From NCBI RefSeq assembly GCF_042453785.1, contig NC_091673.1, forward strand, positions 503,501 through 567,500: a DNA stretch of 64,000 bases, in the 5' to 3' direction. This document shows, in pieces, positions 15,601 through 23,332 of the stretch (positions are counted from its first letter, which is position 1; each line of letters starts with the position of its first letter). The position numbers and the translations under genes were made by a program. This DNA is from Malus domestica (Eukaryota; Streptophyta; Magnoliopsida; Rosales; Rosaceae). A model generated the notes under the pieces. It ran no database searches and was not told where the DNA came from. It saw only the letters and a program-made list of their open reading frames with translations.

Positions 15601-16234
15601 GCTGTATCGGGCATGCCTGTTCATGCAGCAGATATATGGGAAGCAGTCAAGACTGGTAATTTACAAGAAGTCTACCGTATTATCATGATGTCAGATGTGA
15701 ATATTGTCGACACCACCTTTGAGAATGTGGTTACTCATGATTTATATCACCATGCTGATGCAAAACACTCGGAGTCGGATTTGAACACAATGGAGATGAA
15801 ACAGTACGATCCAGTAGCATGTGAGAGAATCAAGGAGTCCAATGAGCCAGGGAACTGTCTTCAAGGTTGTTCATTGTTGCATCTGGCTTGTCACTCTGGC
15901 AATCCTATGATGGTTGAATTGTTGCTGCAATTTGGTGCCAGCATGAATTTGCGTGATTTCCATGGAAGGACTCCTTTGCACCACTGTATCGCCAGCGGGA
16001 ACAACTCATTGGCAAAGTCTCTACTTAGGAGGTAATGTATTTACTTGGATTTAAAACTGTGCTTCACAGAAAGGAATTCATCTTGTTGTCTAATTGGTAG
16101 ACGAAAACTTGTGACGCAGGGGTGCACGCCCGTCAATTCAAGACGGAGGAGGGCATAGTGCATTAGAAAGAGCGATGGGGATGGGAGCAATTACAGATGA
16201 GGAGTTGTTCATACTACTTTCTGAACACGAGTGA
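9496..16234 (+). CDS. ARF GTPase-activating protein, BAR-PH-ArfGAP-ankyrin (AGD2/AGD4-like)
   Basis: Nineteen exons join in phase to 791 aa: 9496-9543, 10036-10112, 10215-10315, 10719-10789, 11047-11109, 11336-11380, 11763-11828, 11934-11981, 12083-12178, 12289-12330, 12591-12806, 13073-13204, 13387-13608, 14081-14167, 14260-14529, 14841-14962, 15073-15163, 15568-16031, 16120-16234. Order: BAR helices (about 1-270), PH domain (292-438, [20 protein letters not shown]), ArfGAP zinc finger with Cys 492, 495, 512, 515 in C-x2-C-x16-C-x2-C and the Arg finger in [12 protein letters not shown] (Arg 520), then ankyrin repeats at the C-terminus ([31 protein letters not shown]). The start [16 protein letters not shown] matches what I recall of AGD2/AGD4. 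Such proteins stimulate GTP hydrolysis by ARF GTPases on curved endomembranes. All zinc ligands are present, so it looks active. Intron 1 carries a TA microsatellite (9587-9622). Confidence 0.93.
9587..9622. repeat. (TA)n microsatellite in AGD intron 1
   Basis: About 18 uninterrupted TA units just downstream of the first splice donor of the AGD gene. Probably length-polymorphic. Confidence 0.9.
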
Positions 16235-17349
16235 AACAGCAATTTCGTCTGTTATGCAGGTTTCCTTCTCACTGTCTGCTAATGCCGGAAACCTGTTTTA
16301 CTTTTCTGACTTACATCATGAACAATAGTCTCTGTCAGAACAGGAGTTCCGTCGAGTTCTTGTCCGTTAATCCTTGTAGGTGTCACGAGTATTTTCTTCA
16401 TCAAAGTTCATTTCATAATGTAATGTAATTTGTCTATAGGGGAATTGTGAAGCTGAAATTCAGATTTACTGCGGTTTTTAAATTAAAATGTTCTTACTCT
16501 TGGTCAGATTGATTTATCTATGCGTATTTTGTTACGAGTTTTATTGAGATCCATTTAACATTGACATTACGTACACCACACACACACACACACACCCCCT
16601 CGTACATCCGTTGCCGATACTTGGTGGAGGAGGAAGGGTGGGAGAGGCGATTAAGCCTCGCAATGAGTTAACCATGATAGTTTAGTTCTTATTCGTCTTT
16701 GTCAAAACTGAAACCTAAAATATTTTATTTACAAGTGAAAATGACGATAGTACTAAGTGGCTATTTGTTTTAATTTTTTGGTAAAGGAATCTTTTTATTG
16801 GTGAACTCCTCGCTGATCAGTCCTCTCTTATTTAGGAAAGGAAGTGCGGGTACTTCCTTCCCACGAAAAATTCTTTCTTTAGGAAATAATAATTTATCAT
16901 GATGTATCGAGCTCACCTCCCAGGGAAAATTTTGAAAGTGCCGGCCACACGATTTGGTATACTAATTATTATAATACAAATGGTTAATAATTTTTCTTTT
17001 TAAATCTCCAACCAAATTGTATTATAATACTTTGTGTGATGAACCGTGTTCCCGTCACACTGGCCAAAGCCTCCTTGCAAATCAGTCAAAGATTGTGTTG
17101 GCAAAACCTGTGAATGCTATGAATATTATTGTTATTGTAAAGGAGGAGCAACGAAAACCATTTTCAAGCAAGTGCAAAAAGAAATCCTAAATTAAAAAGT
17201 CGTTAATTCTCGCACTAATGTTTTCGAAATATTGATGCTGCTATTAAATTCTGTAGATGCGAGAATCATACCACTACTCGCCTCTTATTTAAATAGTAGA
17301 GGAGGTTTAAAAAGAAAAATTATCAATCATTTATATTATAATACTTAGT
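16235..17349. other. Intergenic spacer with a CA repeat and diverged repeat pieces
   Basis: Holds the 3' flank of the AGD gene and a short (CA)n run near 16576-16595. A diverged block at about 16960-17045, including TTGTATTATAATACTTTGTG, resembles part of the foldback arm that follows at 17350-17975. No gene was seen. Confidence 0.5.
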
Positions 17350-17975
17350 ACCGAATTGTACTCGTTTAAAGCCAAATAGGAGGAAAATAGTTGTGCTGCT
17401 ACAAAGTATTATAGTGCAGTTTGATTGGCTAAATAGGAGAGAAGAGAGAATAGTTGATAATTTTTCGTTTCAAATACTCTTTCAAAGATTTACTCGAAGA
17501 CGCCATAGCTCATTCGACAGTCGTCACCTTCCTAAACCCTACAAAATTCTTGTACCGCAATTTGGTCGACGAAAAATTATCCACCTTCTCTCCTATTTAA
17601 ATTCGGAGTAGGATTCTTCCCTCCTCATCCCCCTCCCCTCCTATTTAAAGCCACGTACTCGTTTCGGCGGTTCGCACGACTACTCGCCGGCCACAACCCC
17701 AGACGACTGATCGCCAACCTTCACCGTGTCTATTTCTCTCTTCTCGCTGTCTTTGTCGACCAAATTGCGGTACAATAATTTTGTAGGGTTTAGGAAGGTG
17801 ATGACTGTCGAATGAGCTATGGCGTCTTCGAGTAAATCTTTGAAAGAGTATTTGAAACGAAAAATTATCAACTATTCTCTCTTCTCTCCTATTTAGCCAA
17901 TCAAACTGCATTATAATACTTTGTAGCAGCACAACTATTTCCCTCCTATTTGGCTTTAAACGAGTACGATTCGTA
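17350..17975. mobile_element. Large foldback element with ~200-bp inverted arms
   Basis: The left arm (about 17350-17572) is closely matched by the reverse complement of the right arm (about 17757-17975). Both include CTCGTTTAAAGCCAAATAGG, GTTGTGCTGCTACAAAGTAT and TTACTCGAAGACGCCATAGC. The loop (~185 bp) repeats fragments of the terminal motif (TATTTAAAGCCACGTACTCG near 17641-17660). Each arm carries a short frame that mirrors the other, an artefact of the inverted repeat. A clear target duplication was not found, so the superfamily is undecided. Confidence 0.7.
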
Positions 17976-18075
17976 ATATTACGGTCTGGTCATAATCTTC
18001 TTTACTTGTAAGTGAGAGGTCTTAGTTTTGATTCTCGCCAAAAGTAAATTTGAACCATATTATTGCTATATTCAG
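17976..18075 (+). mobile_element. tRNA-derived SINE, 5' portion
   Basis: Matches the head of the SINE at 41158-41332: GGTCTGGTCATAATC (box-A-like) followed by TTGTAAGTGAGAGGTCTTAG and TTTTGATTCTCGCCAAA (box-B-like), then TTGAACCATATTATTG. It breaks off into an A-rich run at about 18075 and abuts the foldback element. Confidence 0.6.
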
Positions 18076-18261
18076 AAAAAAAAAAAAAAAAAAAGGAGGG
18101 GGTGTGGATTTTAGGTAGGTGAGTAACTTTGTTGAGATATAGACTTTTTGGACTATTTCCTTGAATTGGGCCTGGGCCTTTTCTGGGTCGAATTAATATT
18201 TACTTTTCTTGTGTACTAACGGACCAATGCCTTGGGCCTTGATGGACTAAGCAATACTCGA

Positions 18262-18354
18262 AGACGAATTTGGACCACATATTACTAATTCATTGAGAGG
18301 CTAAGTCCACTTCCTTTCCCCTGAGTGTAAATAATAACTTTTGTTCAAAAAAAA
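18262..18354 (+). mobile_element. tRNA-derived SINE, 3' portion
   Basis: The block TTGGACCACATATTACTAAT through GAGAGGCTAAGTCCAC to AATAACTTTTGTTC plus an A-run corresponds to the 3' half of the SINE at 41158-41332. It begins with a short stretch that overlaps the end of the 5' fragment 190 bp upstream. The two are therefore either separate truncated copies or one copy broken by an insertion with a small duplication. Confidence 0.55.
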
Positions 18355-18588
18355 AAATCTCGTTTTATTTTTTTCAATTTACATTCTTTCTTTTTCAAGG
18401 CAACCAAACGGAATTTAGGACTTGATAATTTCGTTAATTTTTTTTTTCTGCGCAATTTGGAGCGCCTATAAAAGAAAGTTAAAATCCACATAAGCATCCA
18501 TGTCATTTAATGAATAAATAAGAACCATTGGATGTCATGTAATCAAAAGGGTTAAAAAAAGTGTAAAAGTATTTGTCCCTCTATCCTA

Positions 18589-18635
<47 letters not shown>

Positions 18636-18992
18636 CATGGCCGCATGTCCTATTCCATGGGACCAATAGGTTGCATCAATTTCTAGTTAACAACAGAAAA
18701 TTATTTATTTATTAAATTTAATCAATAAATTGGTTGTCAAATACGCATCAAATTTAAATTTTAAAAGACTAATTTTAGCTAACGAGTGAGAATTGATTTA
18801 AAAAATCGAATCAAAATTCTAAAATTAATATTTGATATAACTAGAACTGTTCCCAACAATAAAATAATTAAAATAAAAATATATTAAAATAAAAGACATC
18901 AATATAAAAAAGTTCTCCCAACCGAGCCTGCAGTGATCGGCACGCCCACAGCAGCATTCAAGCATAGAAGGACATAGGGGGCTCGATAAGTC
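18355..18992. other. AT-rich spacer with (AT)n microsatellite at 18593-18632
   Basis: Downstream flank of the RPW8-type gene. Contains about 20 AT units (18593-18632) and otherwise no recognisable feature. Confidence 0.6.
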
Positions 18993-19865
18993 CTAGGATG
19001 CGTTTAAACATCCTCGTCCTCTCCTTTGTTTGTTTAAACACCCTCGTCTACACCTCCGTTTGTAGAACCTTGACGCCGCTTCCGGCATACAACTGCCTCC
19101 AATTTGCTCATGCACCACTGTCTGTGCATTACTTCCTGAAGGCTCTTCCACACCCTTTGCTTCCTGCTGCGCTCTCCGTATCTCCCTTGCTATTTTCAGT
19201 GTTTCCGACTCCATTCTTGCCGATTCATCTTGTTTTTCGCACATCTTCCTAATCAAACGATTGTTCTCCCTAATCAAACGATTGTTCTCCCTATTCAAAC
19301 GATTGTTCTCCCTATTCAAAAGGAAGTTCTTCCTATTCAAAAGAAAGTTCTTCCTATTCAAACGAAAGTTCTTCCTATTGTTCTTCCTATTCAAAAGAAA
19401 GTTCTTCATAATCAAAAGAAAGTTCTTCTTACTCAAAACCAAGTTCTCCATACCCAAATGCATGTTCGTCTTCGTATCCATGGCTTCCTGCAACTTCACT
19501 GCTTCTAACAGTGCTTTAAGAGACGTATTCAATTCAGTAAGTTGATGGGCGTAGCTGGCTCGTCTGCAGCAAATGCACAAGATGTTCCAGTTCCACTTTC
19601 TACGCTTCGACAAACGCTTAAGGAGCTTTTTGCACTGCTTCATTTTTTGTTGGAGACATTCTATGTCATCGTTTGGGAGATCCAGTTCCACGTTTTGATC
19701 TTTTATCCCTTGGATGATCCACGGTCGTAAACCGTCTAGTGTAGTTTGAAGATCTGTAAGGACGCCTTCGTACTTAGCAACAGTCCCTATCGATGCCTTC
19801 ACGGCATCATACAGTCCGTCAAACAATTTTCCTATGAGAGCCCCTGTAATCATAGTCACCACCAT
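18993..19865 (-). CDS. RPW8-domain immune protein with leucine-heptad repeat tail
   Basis: Uninterrupted 290-aa frame. The start ATG follows closely after an in-frame stop, so the N-terminus is firm. Residues 1-125 read as an RPW8 domain: GALIGKLFDGLYDAVKASIG, TTLDGLRPWI, then CLQQKMKQCKKLLKRLSK. RPW8 is a membrane-associated four-helix-type domain of broad-spectrum mildew resistance proteins and helper NLRs; there is no NB-ARC or LRR here. Residues 140-206 are nine 7-residue repeats plus one 4-residue partial unit of the type KNFLLNR/ENNRLIR, with Leu at the fifth position of every full unit (144, 151, 158, 169, 176, 183, 190, 197, 204). This predicts an extended coiled coil, and the DNA shows a 21-bp period (19248-19448). 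A charged helix and a Cys/Arg-rich tail with a repeated GCLN motif follow. Role in immunity is inferred from the domain. Confidence 0.82.
   Translation of the reverse strand: MVVTMITGALIGKLFDGLYDAVKASIGTVAKYEGVLTDLQTTLDGLRPWIIQGIKDQNVELDLPNDDIECLQQKMKQCKKLLKRLSKRRKWNWNILCICCRRASYAHQLTELNTSLKALLEAVKLQEAMDTKTNMHLGMENLVLSKKNFLLIMKNFLLNRKNNRKNFRLNRKNFLLNRKNFLLNRENNRLNRENNRLIRENNRLIRKMCEKQDESARMESETLKIAREIRRAQQEAKGVEEPSGSNAQTVVHEQIGGSCMPEAASRFYKRRCRRGCLNKQRRGRGCLNAS
19248..19451 (-). repeat. 21-bp coding tandem repeat inside the RPW8-type gene
   Basis: On the + strand the unit reads like TATTCAAACGATTGTTCTCCC with drift to TATTCAAAAGAAAGTTCTTCC. One 12-bp partial unit (protein KNNR, residues 161-164) interrupts the phase by four residues. 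The + strand frames here (MFSLIKRLFSL and similar) are shadows. Confidence 0.9.
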
Positions 19866-21448
19866 GATTTACGAGCTTCCAAAAACTCCCTGCACGCAAA
19901 AAACAGAAAAAAAACTTGTGTTCGATTCGATCTAAAACGACCACCCTTATTACTGCTCAGTCGGATTCAGACCAGTTTTACTCTAGCGGACAATGAATCG
20001 GATATGAATGGAAAGAGTTACGTTGAATACTTCGTTAGTTTATTCATCCTTTAAGGGTTACAATATATAGACACACGTGCCTTGTTTTACAAGGAAACTA
20101 ACTACAAGATAAGGAAACTAACTTGTAAAGAAAAAGAAAGTAAATACAAAAGGCTAAGTAGGTTAAAGTTTCCAATTGCCGTTGGGAAAGAAGAAAAGGA
20201 ATGTGGACGTGTTATTTCCCATACAAATTGGGAAATAGGTTTTTCTTTCGGACGTTAGATTAGGAAATAAACCATGCACATTTAATATCATGATAAAAAC
20301 ATATGGGCCTTACCGTTCATCATTTGGGTCGGGCCCAAAAGAGATCCAGAAATTTGTTTTATTTTATTTTTCAAATAAAGGTCACGTGACGTGCACAAAC
20401 AGAGAGTGAGATAGAGAAAGCCGGCGAGAAATCCACAAGTTGGTGGCCGCGCGGTGGCGGCGGCGTCTTCTCGTGATCCAAACGGAGATCCAACGGTTGA
20501 AAGCTTGTCTGGATCCATCCCTGGCCTGTTTCTTCTTGCAGGCGTCGTCGACTTGGTAACGTACCTTTCACGCTCTCAAAATTGTGGTTTTATTTTTTTT
20601 CAATTTACTTTCTTTGTTTGTTTCTTGTTGCCTGCTATTTTCTCGGCAACCAAACGGAATTTCGGACTGCACAATTTCGTTAATTTTATTCTCTGCTAAG
20701 TTAGGATTTTTCAGTAGAGTAGAATTGTCGTAAAAACAGATGAAAGTTCGAGAAGAAAAATTCCACGATTGGAACGCCTGGTAAAAGTTGGATAATTTCG
20801 TCTGGAACTTTGCTTTTACTCAATCGAAGATACTAAAAATCCCTAAATTCTGCAGAATCTTACATATGTGTGTTTAAAGTCTGAAACTTTTCTAAATTTG
20901 TCATCTGTCTGAAACAATGGCTGAGTTGTTGTTGTATCGATCAGGTGCCGCCTAACCGATACAACAACAACAACAACAATGATAAAGCCCTATATCACTA
21001 AGTGGGGTTGACTGTATGAATCCTAGAACGCTACGTAAGTTATGTAGTGGTGTTTATCCCACTTGGTTCATCCCGAATTGCTGATTTATCCATGAATGTT
21101 TGACCATGGCTCCGTGTTCTCTATAAGTACAAGGATTGTGAGGGAAAGGTGAAAAGAACACTATTTAGGGAGTGCAATAGAGGACCTGAGATCCCTTGCG
21201 AATAATCAATTGGAGGAGTGGTGGTTGCTAAGACCAGTGTCCATAAGAGACCTTGATGATGTTTCGCTACAAGTTGTGAAGGAACTAGAGATGTTGATTT
21301 TTGAAATTTTCAATCTTTGATAGTTAATGAATTTCCACTCAGTTTTAGGTATCCGCCCTAACTTTTTTAGTTATAAGATAAGTAAGCTTAATTTGGTTCC
21401 ATCTTATGTTAAACCATGTGTGTTGTAGGTTAGGTGGAAAGACAGAAA
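19866..21448. other. Spacer with probable 5' UTR exon of the next gene
   Basis: The GC-richer block at about 20400-20560 ends in GACTTG|GTAACG, a good splice donor. A matching acceptor (TGTTGTAG) lies at 21421-21428, just before the ATG at 21449. I read this as a non-coding first exon of the 21449-22805 gene. The region also contains a LINE-like 3' fragment. Nothing else was identified. Confidence 0.45.
20960..21060 (-). mobile_element. Possible RTE-type LINE 3' end with (TTG)n tail
   Basis: On the minus strand the block reads AGTCAACCCCACTTAGTG, then AGGGCTTTATCA, then five TTG units. It resembles the 3' ends of plant RTE-clade LINEs, which finish with a conserved tract and (TTG)n. Only a ~100-bp tail is visible, with no reverse transcriptase remnant. 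Recognition is from memory of the family. Confidence 0.4.
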
Positions 21449-22805
21449 ATGGTAGGAGTTACTCCAGACGATGGAACTAGGAGACGTTTACCGCAATGGA
21501 TGCTGGGCATATCTTCTGGTGTCCAAGTAAGCAAGCCTAGTAATGTTAAGGAAAATGGAAAGGAGCTTCTGGAAGGGACCCAATCTCACGAAAATCCGCA
21601 TGTTCTCGTAAAATGTGCGACAAAGAGAAGAAAAAGAAAATCAACCGAACAGGATGCAGACTTTGAAGATGATGTCCCAGAAACTGTTCCAGAAAAGAAG
21701 CGTAATGGACGCGGGAGAAGAAAAGTTCAGGAGCCTGCAGCTCCAAAGAGACAAAAAGCAAAGGATCCTGGAGAAGAGATACAGCTTCATGAAAAGGAAA
21801 CTCTGGAGGAGAACTCACACTTTCTTACAAAATGTGAGACAAAAAGAAGAAAAAGAAAATCAGATGAACAAGATGCAGAATTTGATGGTATCTTCCCCGA
21901 AACCTTTGCAGAGAAGAAGTGTAAGGGACTTGGGAGAAGAAAAGTTCGGGAATCTGATGCTCCAAAGAGACAAAAATTAAAGGGTTCTAGCTGTGGAAGT
22001 TATGAGGAACAAGAAGTACGGACTTCAACTGTTGATGATGTTGAACTGACGGTGGAAGATTTAGTGATCATTGCTGAAGAGGTAATTTTCTCTTTAATAT
22101 TGAAAAGAACTGATTCTCATATTTTCTGCTCTTAAATCTGTACGATATATGGCTGTAGTTTCTATTTATAAACAAGATCTTATGATATATTCTATGATAT
22201 TTTACTGGAACACCAACTGGAGAAATTACATTTCTATCAATAGCTGTTGATTGTTTATCTTGGTCTCCAAGATTAGATAGAGATTGACTTAAGAAATATC
22301 ATGATGATAGTACACAAGATAGAAACCTAACGTCACTATCATTTTTCTGCAGTATATTGAAGCTGATAGAAATATGGAGCGAGAAGAATTACCAAACCAA
22401 GAACGTGAATCAGACAGGAGACTTGTAGAAAGAGTCTGTTCCGGTAATGTGTTCAAAGATTCTGTTGATGCCCAAAAGGGTAATCAAGGATCACTTATCC
22501 CAGATACAACTACTTCCAAGCCAAATGGGAGTTTGACAAGTACAGAAACAAAGAATTCCAGCGGGAGAGAAGATCCTGCTCAGGACATGCTGGATCTGTT
22601 TTTAGGGCCGTTGCTGAAGAAAACCGTCGAGAAGGAGACAAAGGAGAAGGACAGAAAGGCTCAAATGTTGACAGAGAATATGACATTTTCCCAAGAATTC
22701 AAAAGACAAAGTGAGAGTAATGTCATTAGAGAAGAAATTCCCCCCACCCCTGTAGTGAAGAAGAAGAGCAGTCTTAGAGACAAGGTGGCAATGTTTCTTG
22801 ACTGA
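21449..22805 (+). CDS. Plant protein of unknown function, basic, internally duplicated, two coding exons
   Basis: Exons 21449-22081 and 22353-22805 join in phase to 361 aa. I chose the ATG at 21449 (MVGVTPDDGTRRRLPQWMLG); the frame extends 15 bp upstream only from a GTG. Residues of about 30-190 hold two tandem copies of a ~75-residue unit containing TKRRKRKS, EQDA(D/E)F, PET, (R/K)GLGRRKVRE or RGRRKVQE, and APKRQK. The runs of Lys/Arg look like nuclear localisation or AT-hook-like signals. Exon 2 has acidic and polar sequence, then a conserved-looking end: DMLDLFLGPLLKK, QEFKRQSE and SSLRDKVAMFLD. I do not recognise a named family, and a nuclear role is inferred only from composition. Codon use and clean splice sites support a real gene. 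Confidence 0.78.
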
Positions 22806-23332
22806 ACCAGATACTGAAAACTGTTAACAGGGCGGATCTGTATGGTACAATGAAGGGTAAAGTTCAGACGATACATGATCCTGGAGACTGATCAGATGCA
22901 TCAATCAGTCTTTGCGGATTTATCATCTCGCCGCAGATGCTACTCCGGATAGAGATCTGCCACTCTTGGCCTTGGTTTGTGACCAAAACTCTACGATTTG
23001 GTTAAGTGTATTGCATAGATAGATACTACAATTCTATCATCTGTTTAGCAATTGGCATGTAAGGTGATATTTTTCTGTAAATTCTTTCAGTTAATAACAT
23101 ATCTCACTCGAAGAGTATAGAGCTGCCTACTTTTGATTTTTAAGATAACTACCCCATTCGTAATTGTACTTTCACCATCTCTGTTTCACTTGCCATACCT
23201 TGGTATCAATATCTCTCCTGCTTGTGTACAGATTTTTTTCCTTAATCTTCTTCAATGGAGTGGTATGTGTTTTTCGGGTTGAGCTTGGAGGTTAAAGGTT
23301 AGTGCAACTGCCGCATGGGATATTCGATAGCG
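22806..23332. other. Intergenic, nothing recognised
   Basis: 3' flank of the duplicated nuclear-type gene. AT-rich, with no frame or repeat of note. Confidence 0.5.

Follow-up and report, generated by a model that had tools for sequence, protein, structure and literature searches.

In Arabidopsis, the RPW8 domain of RPW8.1 and of HR4 is followed by repeats of 21 and 14 amino acids, respectively (PMC6684095, partial text). Swap and deletion constructs show that repeat number and tail determine the severity of necrosis with RPP7 partners, in either direction depending on the allele (PMC6684095, partial text). The autoimmunity is explained by an allele-specific physical interaction between RPP7 and HR4, according to a later paper as cited in PMC8116057 (partial text). 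Profile searches place the RPW8-type helper NLRs NRG1 and ADR1 in the same RPW8 (CC-R) domain family as the protein described here.

The locus analysed here lies in a 64,000-nucleotide stretch of contig C13 (C13:503501-567500), hereafter the window, of a Malus domestica genome of 651 Mb and 19 contigs. Its 290-aa protein resembles RPW8.1 and HR4 in overall order: an RPW8 domain, then tandem repeats of a segment predicted to be helical whose length is a multiple of 7, and finally a short C-terminal tail. Like these two proteins, and unlike NRG1 and ADR1, it has no NB-ARC or LRR. It differs from RPW8.1 and HR4 in its unit, which has 7 residues of the form [KE]N[FN][LR]L[NI]R in place of the published 21- and 14-aa units, in its ten copies compared with a few in Arabidopsis, in being the one RPW8 match listed for its contig rather than a member of a cluster, and in its derivation from an NLR-type gene with tandem RPW8 domains in the same genome. 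The initial annotation had supposed that the unit is unlike the Arabidopsis ones, and comparison by eye agrees, with no evident sequence similarity to the published units (PMC6684095, partial text). Among the matches listed, no paper title or abstract beginning reports a Rosaceae RPW8 protein with a heptad tail. The features of the locus are collected in Table 1.

Table 1. Features of the window gene and its flanks (positions in the window)
Feature	Position	Strand	Remark
Open frame of 290 aa, RPW8 protein with heptad tail	18993..19865	-	ORF, stop included
RPW8 domain, residues 5-136	19458..19853	-	PF05659, E 2.8e-14, 53.4 bits, cut-off 30.4
Heptad array, residues 133-206	19248..19469	-	Ten full units and one 4-residue unit; by homology alignment
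KNNR, a 4-residue unit derived from a heptad by in-frame loss of 9 bp	19374..19385	-	One Leu-Leu step of 11 instead of 7
Post-array segment, residues 207-265	19071..19247	-	In frame with the C6 paralogue
Residues 266-290, former start of second RPW8 module	18996..19070	-	Shifted frame after 16-bp gap; charge +10 in 25 residues
Segment homologous at DNA level to the C6 gene L041	18979..19983	-	Two blocks, both 77%, with the array between; MAFFT extends to ~20010
Acceptor-like CAG after a T-rich run, 24 bp before ATG	19890..19892	-	TAG in the C6 gene
Match to last two thirds of a ~187-bp LTR-like repeat	20013..20131	-	Same sense as the gene; by eye, TATATA at 20063-20069

The RPW8 protein and its heptad array

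A Pfam search bears out the RPW8 assignment of the initial annotation. The match exceeds the gathering score and spans most of the domain, covering profile positions 3-128 of 139, and no Pfam match to NB-ARC or LRR is found in the 290-aa product up to E 1. The protein is of the RPW8-only (RPW8/HR) type and not of the RPW8-NB-ARC-LRR (RNL) type. A profile built from 13 RPW8 sequences of the same genome matches the solved chains At5g66900 and At5g04720 (four chains, E <=4e-10), which we take to be products of the genes named NRG1/ADR1. The window protein alone, searched against solved structures with phmmer, reaches a best E of 0.029, with chain At5g04720. At least 55 RPW8 matches, at least 54 of them over the cut-off, were obtained by the family search on contigs C2, C6, C8, C11, C12, C13, C14 and C15, and the window gene is the sole match on C13 among those listed. 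Scans of the window for Rfam families (at gathering threshold) and tRNAs return nothing.

The repeats begin directly after the RPW8 domain, as in RPW8.1 and HR4, and read in order TNMHLGM, ENLVLSK, KNFLLIM, KNFLLNR, KNNR, KNFRLNR, KNFLLNR, KNFLLNR, ENNRLNR, ENNRLIR and ENNRLIR. Nine exact heptads and a 4-residue partial unit had been reported; this many units of these lengths are present at 19248-19448, although the nine comprise six different sequences and are thus not exact copies. That count also misses a tenth, older unit, TNMHLGM at 19449-19469, which is recognised only by homology, in the alignment with the C6 and C14 paralogues, and which agrees with a single ancestral heptad. The reported leucine at the fifth position ('d') holds in 9/9 of those units and in 10/10 once the tenth is included; asparagine occupies the second position ('a') in 10/10 full units. 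The reported 21-bp period is detected at the array by TRF, where the best score for this period is 174. Helices can absorb a Leu-Leu step of 11 as a stutter, and KNNR gives one such step, the stutter that the initial annotation had named.

Self-identity was scanned over lags of 5-30 residues. The best 35-residue stretch of the array is identical to itself at 30/35 positions at lag 7, compared with a best of 10/35 among 23 other RPW8-motif frames, some of which are the same gene at different trims and which are a subset of the at least 55 PF05659 matches. The array is not explained by chance, and among the 24 RPW8-motif frames scanned it is found in the window gene only. A donor-like GTAAG motif at 19432, inside the second unit and absent from the C6 unit, was considered as a sign of cryptic splicing of the array. 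This was rejected: it is the single GTRAG motif in the gene, a convincing downstream acceptor is missing, and no acceptor with >=10/14 pyrimidines is found at 70-600 bases from it.

Descent from a tandem-RPW8 gene

Within the same genome, the window gene is closest to the first RPW8 module of a tandem RPW8-RPW8-SBP-NB-ARC gene on contig C6. By score, its top relatives are the first modules of three C6 genes, and by DNA a broken copy on C14 (L042) ranks second to the C6 gene L041. The first RPW8 module, post-helix segment and 5' flank of L041 align with the window, and the C14 copy aligns in three blocks of 73-79% DNA identity; outside the homologous segment, blastn finds nothing that matches the 9.9 kb surrounding the C6 gene. 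The C6 genes L040 and L041 are direct relatives that differ from the window gene in carrying one heptad followed by second RPW8, SBP and NB-ARC regions. At the site of the array, L041 has the single heptad ENLLLNR and L042 the single heptad AILLLNR. Since both relatives have one unit, the tail would most simply have grown from one to ten on the window branch. The independent origin that had been proposed for this repeat tail is supported by these single heptads and by the lack of evident similarity to the Arabidopsis units.

The post-array segment has a net charge of -3 in both the window and C6. After it, at 19070, the start of the second RPW8 module has a 16-bp gap relative to C6, and the protein terminates at a TAG that the frameshift brings into frame; 14 bases past this TAG, blastn homology to C6 ends. 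The shifted frame and its stop indicate that the stand-alone state is a product of truncation. On these alignments the window gene is a relocated fragment that became stand-alone through truncation and frameshift. 'Stand-alone', the term used at first, accordingly describes the product correctly but names a secondary state, cut from a tandem-RPW8 gene and with its last 25 residues frameshifted. In a tree of 8 RPW8 rows, the window protein groups with C6a and C14 on a long branch, with support of 93/92 (below the starred level). Pairwise Ks values are similar (0.234 for window and C6a, 0.219 for C6a and C14), which indicates that the three copies separated at about one time. The C14 copy also carries its own duplication of the post-heptad segment (L042:5247-5972), absent in C6 and the window, and the tail region is thus length-unstable in the clade of these copies.

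In L041, two RPW8 domains and the beginning of SBP share one open frame, and the next contains the remainder of SBP and NB-ARC; L040 is alike. In both (L040:4432-7408 and L041:4527-7689) the SBP domain is divided over the two frames as if by an intron. In L039 (6534-8798, C6), a WRKY domain frame (PF03106, 91.1 bits) comes after an RPW8-RPW8 frame; another exon beyond it looks WRKY-like by eye, and L039 is a possible RPW8-WRKY fusion. Paper titles and abstract beginnings among the matches listed describe no RPW8-SBP fusion, and 'SBP' is absent from the main text of the survey PMC12787737.

C6-like sequence is not found beyond ~145 bp upstream of the window gene, and the native promoter was therefore probably lost. 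The LTR-like match adjoins the end of the C6-homologous segment as extended by MAFFT; it derives from a ~187-bp direct repeat that is paired and LTR-like on C10 and C7, and this piece could serve as a new promoter. The acceptor-like CAG is a possible end of a 5'UTR intron. Capture of the gene inside an LTR element was considered and is not claimed: other LTR matches within 16000-23000 are weak, with E no better than 0.004, and 17000-22000 shows no match at E 0.001 to the internal portions of two elements. Nearby, the window also contains a dispersed repeat at 18687-18904 and, downstream of the gene, an inverted repeat at 17352-17573 and 17752-17973 with 222-bp arms that are 97% alike, a foldback or MITE-like element. 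A divergent neighbouring frame at 21434-22132 on the plus strand (233 aa) contains an internal 155-bp duplication, 81% alike; it has no other genome match at E 0.001, and its only Pfam match is sub-threshold.

Selection, tail structure and competing readings

Changes on each branch were polarised by C14, C6b and C6c, with ambiguous changes left out of the counts (11 in the count given here, between 6 and 24 overall). On the window branch, 74 changes are nonsynonymous and 11 synonymous, compared with 14 and 11 on the C6a branch (Fisher p 0.0015); the window branch departs from the neutral ratio, with kappa 2 assumed, at a binomial p of 0.002. A custom codon model was fitted to five sequences and 195 codons, excluding the array and the columns gapped in the window or C6a. 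The maximum-likelihood omega is 2.6 on the window branch and 0.36-0.46 on the rest; the C14 pseudogene, at 1.06, is a built-in neutral control. Compared with a window omega of 1, doubling the log-likelihood difference gives 8.39 (p 0.0038), or 8.59 with C14 free (p 0.0034). Nine robustness runs were made with the C14 omega fixed at 1. Three topologies give p values of 0.0034, 0.0035 and 0.0023, uniform codon frequencies 0.0022 and omission of C14 0.0078. Without codons near gaps (159 codons) the window omega is 3.26 (p 0.0024), and for the RPW8 domain alone (135 codons) it is 2.2 (p 0.026). By alignment half, omega is 1.9 in the first (p 0.11, not significant) and 6.3 in the second (p 0.0036).

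Divergence of the 5' noncoding sequence is 0.134 over 130 bp, lower than the Ka of 0.244. Indels relative to C6 up to residue 265 are of 3, 6 and 201 bp, all multiples of 3, and those in the 5' noncoding sequence are of 18, 13 and 4 bp. No stop is present among the 85 inferred window-branch changes, whereas neutral simulation gives stop-free runs at 3.7% for 80 changes and 1.9% for 100, an argument that is weak alone because the locus was picked for its open frame. By frame and codon test the gene does not class as a pseudogene, being open through residue 290 with an omega of 2.6 (p about 0.0035), while the first half stands at p 0.11 and the stub of the second module is frameshifted. By the codon test, the window gene is not simply decaying, and protein change faster than chance decay suggests a working, fast-evolving immune gene.

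The single-sequence AF2 model predicts one helix over residues 132-236, with pLDDT of 72-96 over residues 141-240 in blocks of ten; the mean pLDDT of the model is 58.6, its RPW8 part is unreliable and it is silent on oligomers. A Foldseek search with this model was set aside, its three matches (best E 7.3) being meaningless. The predicted helix has Leu at each d and Asn at each a; Asn throughout the a positions makes a poor hydrophobic core, which counts against a coiled-coil tail. Joined in a minimum spanning tree, the units and the single C6 heptad imply 19 changes, with 0 in an a or d codon. The chance that any two codons escape 19 changes is 0.033, and 0.011 for a pair with a/d spacing; without the oldest unit these values become 0.22 and 0.08 and significance is gone, so recency may account for much of the invariance. 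The hydrophobic moment of the whole array at heptad pitch is reached by 19/5000 shuffles, compared with 994/5000 at 100 degrees. It resides in the ENN block (1/5000) and not in the KNF block (1259/5000), where amphipathicity at heptad pitch is no better than in shuffles.

These results bear on three readings other than a coiled-coil tail. The locus could be a silent fragment, that is, a duplicated RPW8 piece without selection, with a frame open by chance and repeats that are functionless slippage. We consider this unlikely but give it real weight: a window-branch omega above 1 beside a C14 pseudogene near 1, a lack of stops expected in 2-4% of cases and coding indels confined to multiples of 3 up to residue 265 all speak against it, but the frameshift truncation, the end of C6-like upstream sequence at ~145 bp, dispersed-repeat matches on both sides, an overall pairwise Ka/Ks with C6a of 1.04 (0.66 between C6a and C14), a first half of the codon alignment that does not reject an omega of 1, and array units that are young and little different are what such a fragment would have.

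The tail may instead be a basic, amphipathic helix and bind to membrane or to acidic lipid, with more repeats attaching the RPW8 bundle more strongly. The array carries +15 over 74 residues, the single C6 heptad 0 and the last 25 residues +10, and the KNFLLNR units, by eye, place three adjacent hydrophobics to one side of the basic residues. Low array hydrophobicity (mean -0.41) and ENN units with one or two hydrophobics, expected to bind poorly, leave this reading quite improbable. Still further down in probability, and very doubtful, are amyloid- or prion-like signalling repeats that drive oligomerisation as in fungal HET-S. RPW8 and HeLo domains have been likened, and HET-S is regulated by repeats (PMC6684095, partial text). 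The Asn-rich units would suit such repeats, but a continuous helix is predicted by AF2, and the units are highly charged and of 7 residues, not of 21 residues with a spacer.

A proposed origin and role for the tail

The explanation favoured here, a coiled-coil-type regulatory tail grown independently on an RPW8 protein and analogous to the Arabidopsis RPW8.1/HR4 repeats, has in our judgement about an even chance of being correct. In this explanation a piece of about 1 kb from a tandem RPW8 immune gene reached C13 at roughly the point when the C6 and C14 copies diverged; it comprised the first RPW8 module, a 5' stretch of about 120-145 bp and the opening codons of the second module. Through frameshift and truncation it became a one-domain RPW8 protein. 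The single heptad in the helix after the RPW8 bundle then multiplied, 21 bp at a time, until there were ten units, and the predicted result is one helix of ~105 residues in which all d positions are Leu and all a positions Asn. The protein would be made, and its tail would form a coiled coil with itself or with a partner. The length of the tail may then tune oligomerisation and, through it, either what the RPW8 bundle does at the membrane or in cell death or how it contacts an NLR, as repeat number does in RPW8.1/HR4, and the replacements may reflect an arms race whose other side is a pathogen or an NLR partner. Descent, one-to-ten growth, the open frame and an omega above 1 on this branch are established by the analysis, and a function of the window gene is plausible. 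A bolder form of the proposal is offered tentatively, as somewhat improbable in full: a second, independent origin of a repeat-counted RPW8 regulatory tail, in which one heptad of an NLR-type gene, freed by truncation, would have become an Asn-a/Leu-d helix longer by ~100 angstroms, with the whole protein under positive selection and heptad number, perhaps allelic, setting the trigger level of immune cell death.

The expansion is real and, among the scanned frames, found in this gene only, a truncated RPW8 gene whose codons carry a signal of positive selection. Repeat number in Arabidopsis RPW8/HR proteins sets autoimmune hybrid necrosis (PMC6684095, partial text), and the window gene offers an instance with a different unit sequence. 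The same genome still contains a relative with one heptad, and the ten-unit gene bears a codon signature of positive selection. To our knowledge, whether repeat length, helix register or sequence is what counts in the Arabidopsis proteins is open; if the tail works, this gene would allow the effect of helix length to be told apart from that of sequence. Should unit counts differ between accessions, it would provide a testable locus for immune incompatibility.
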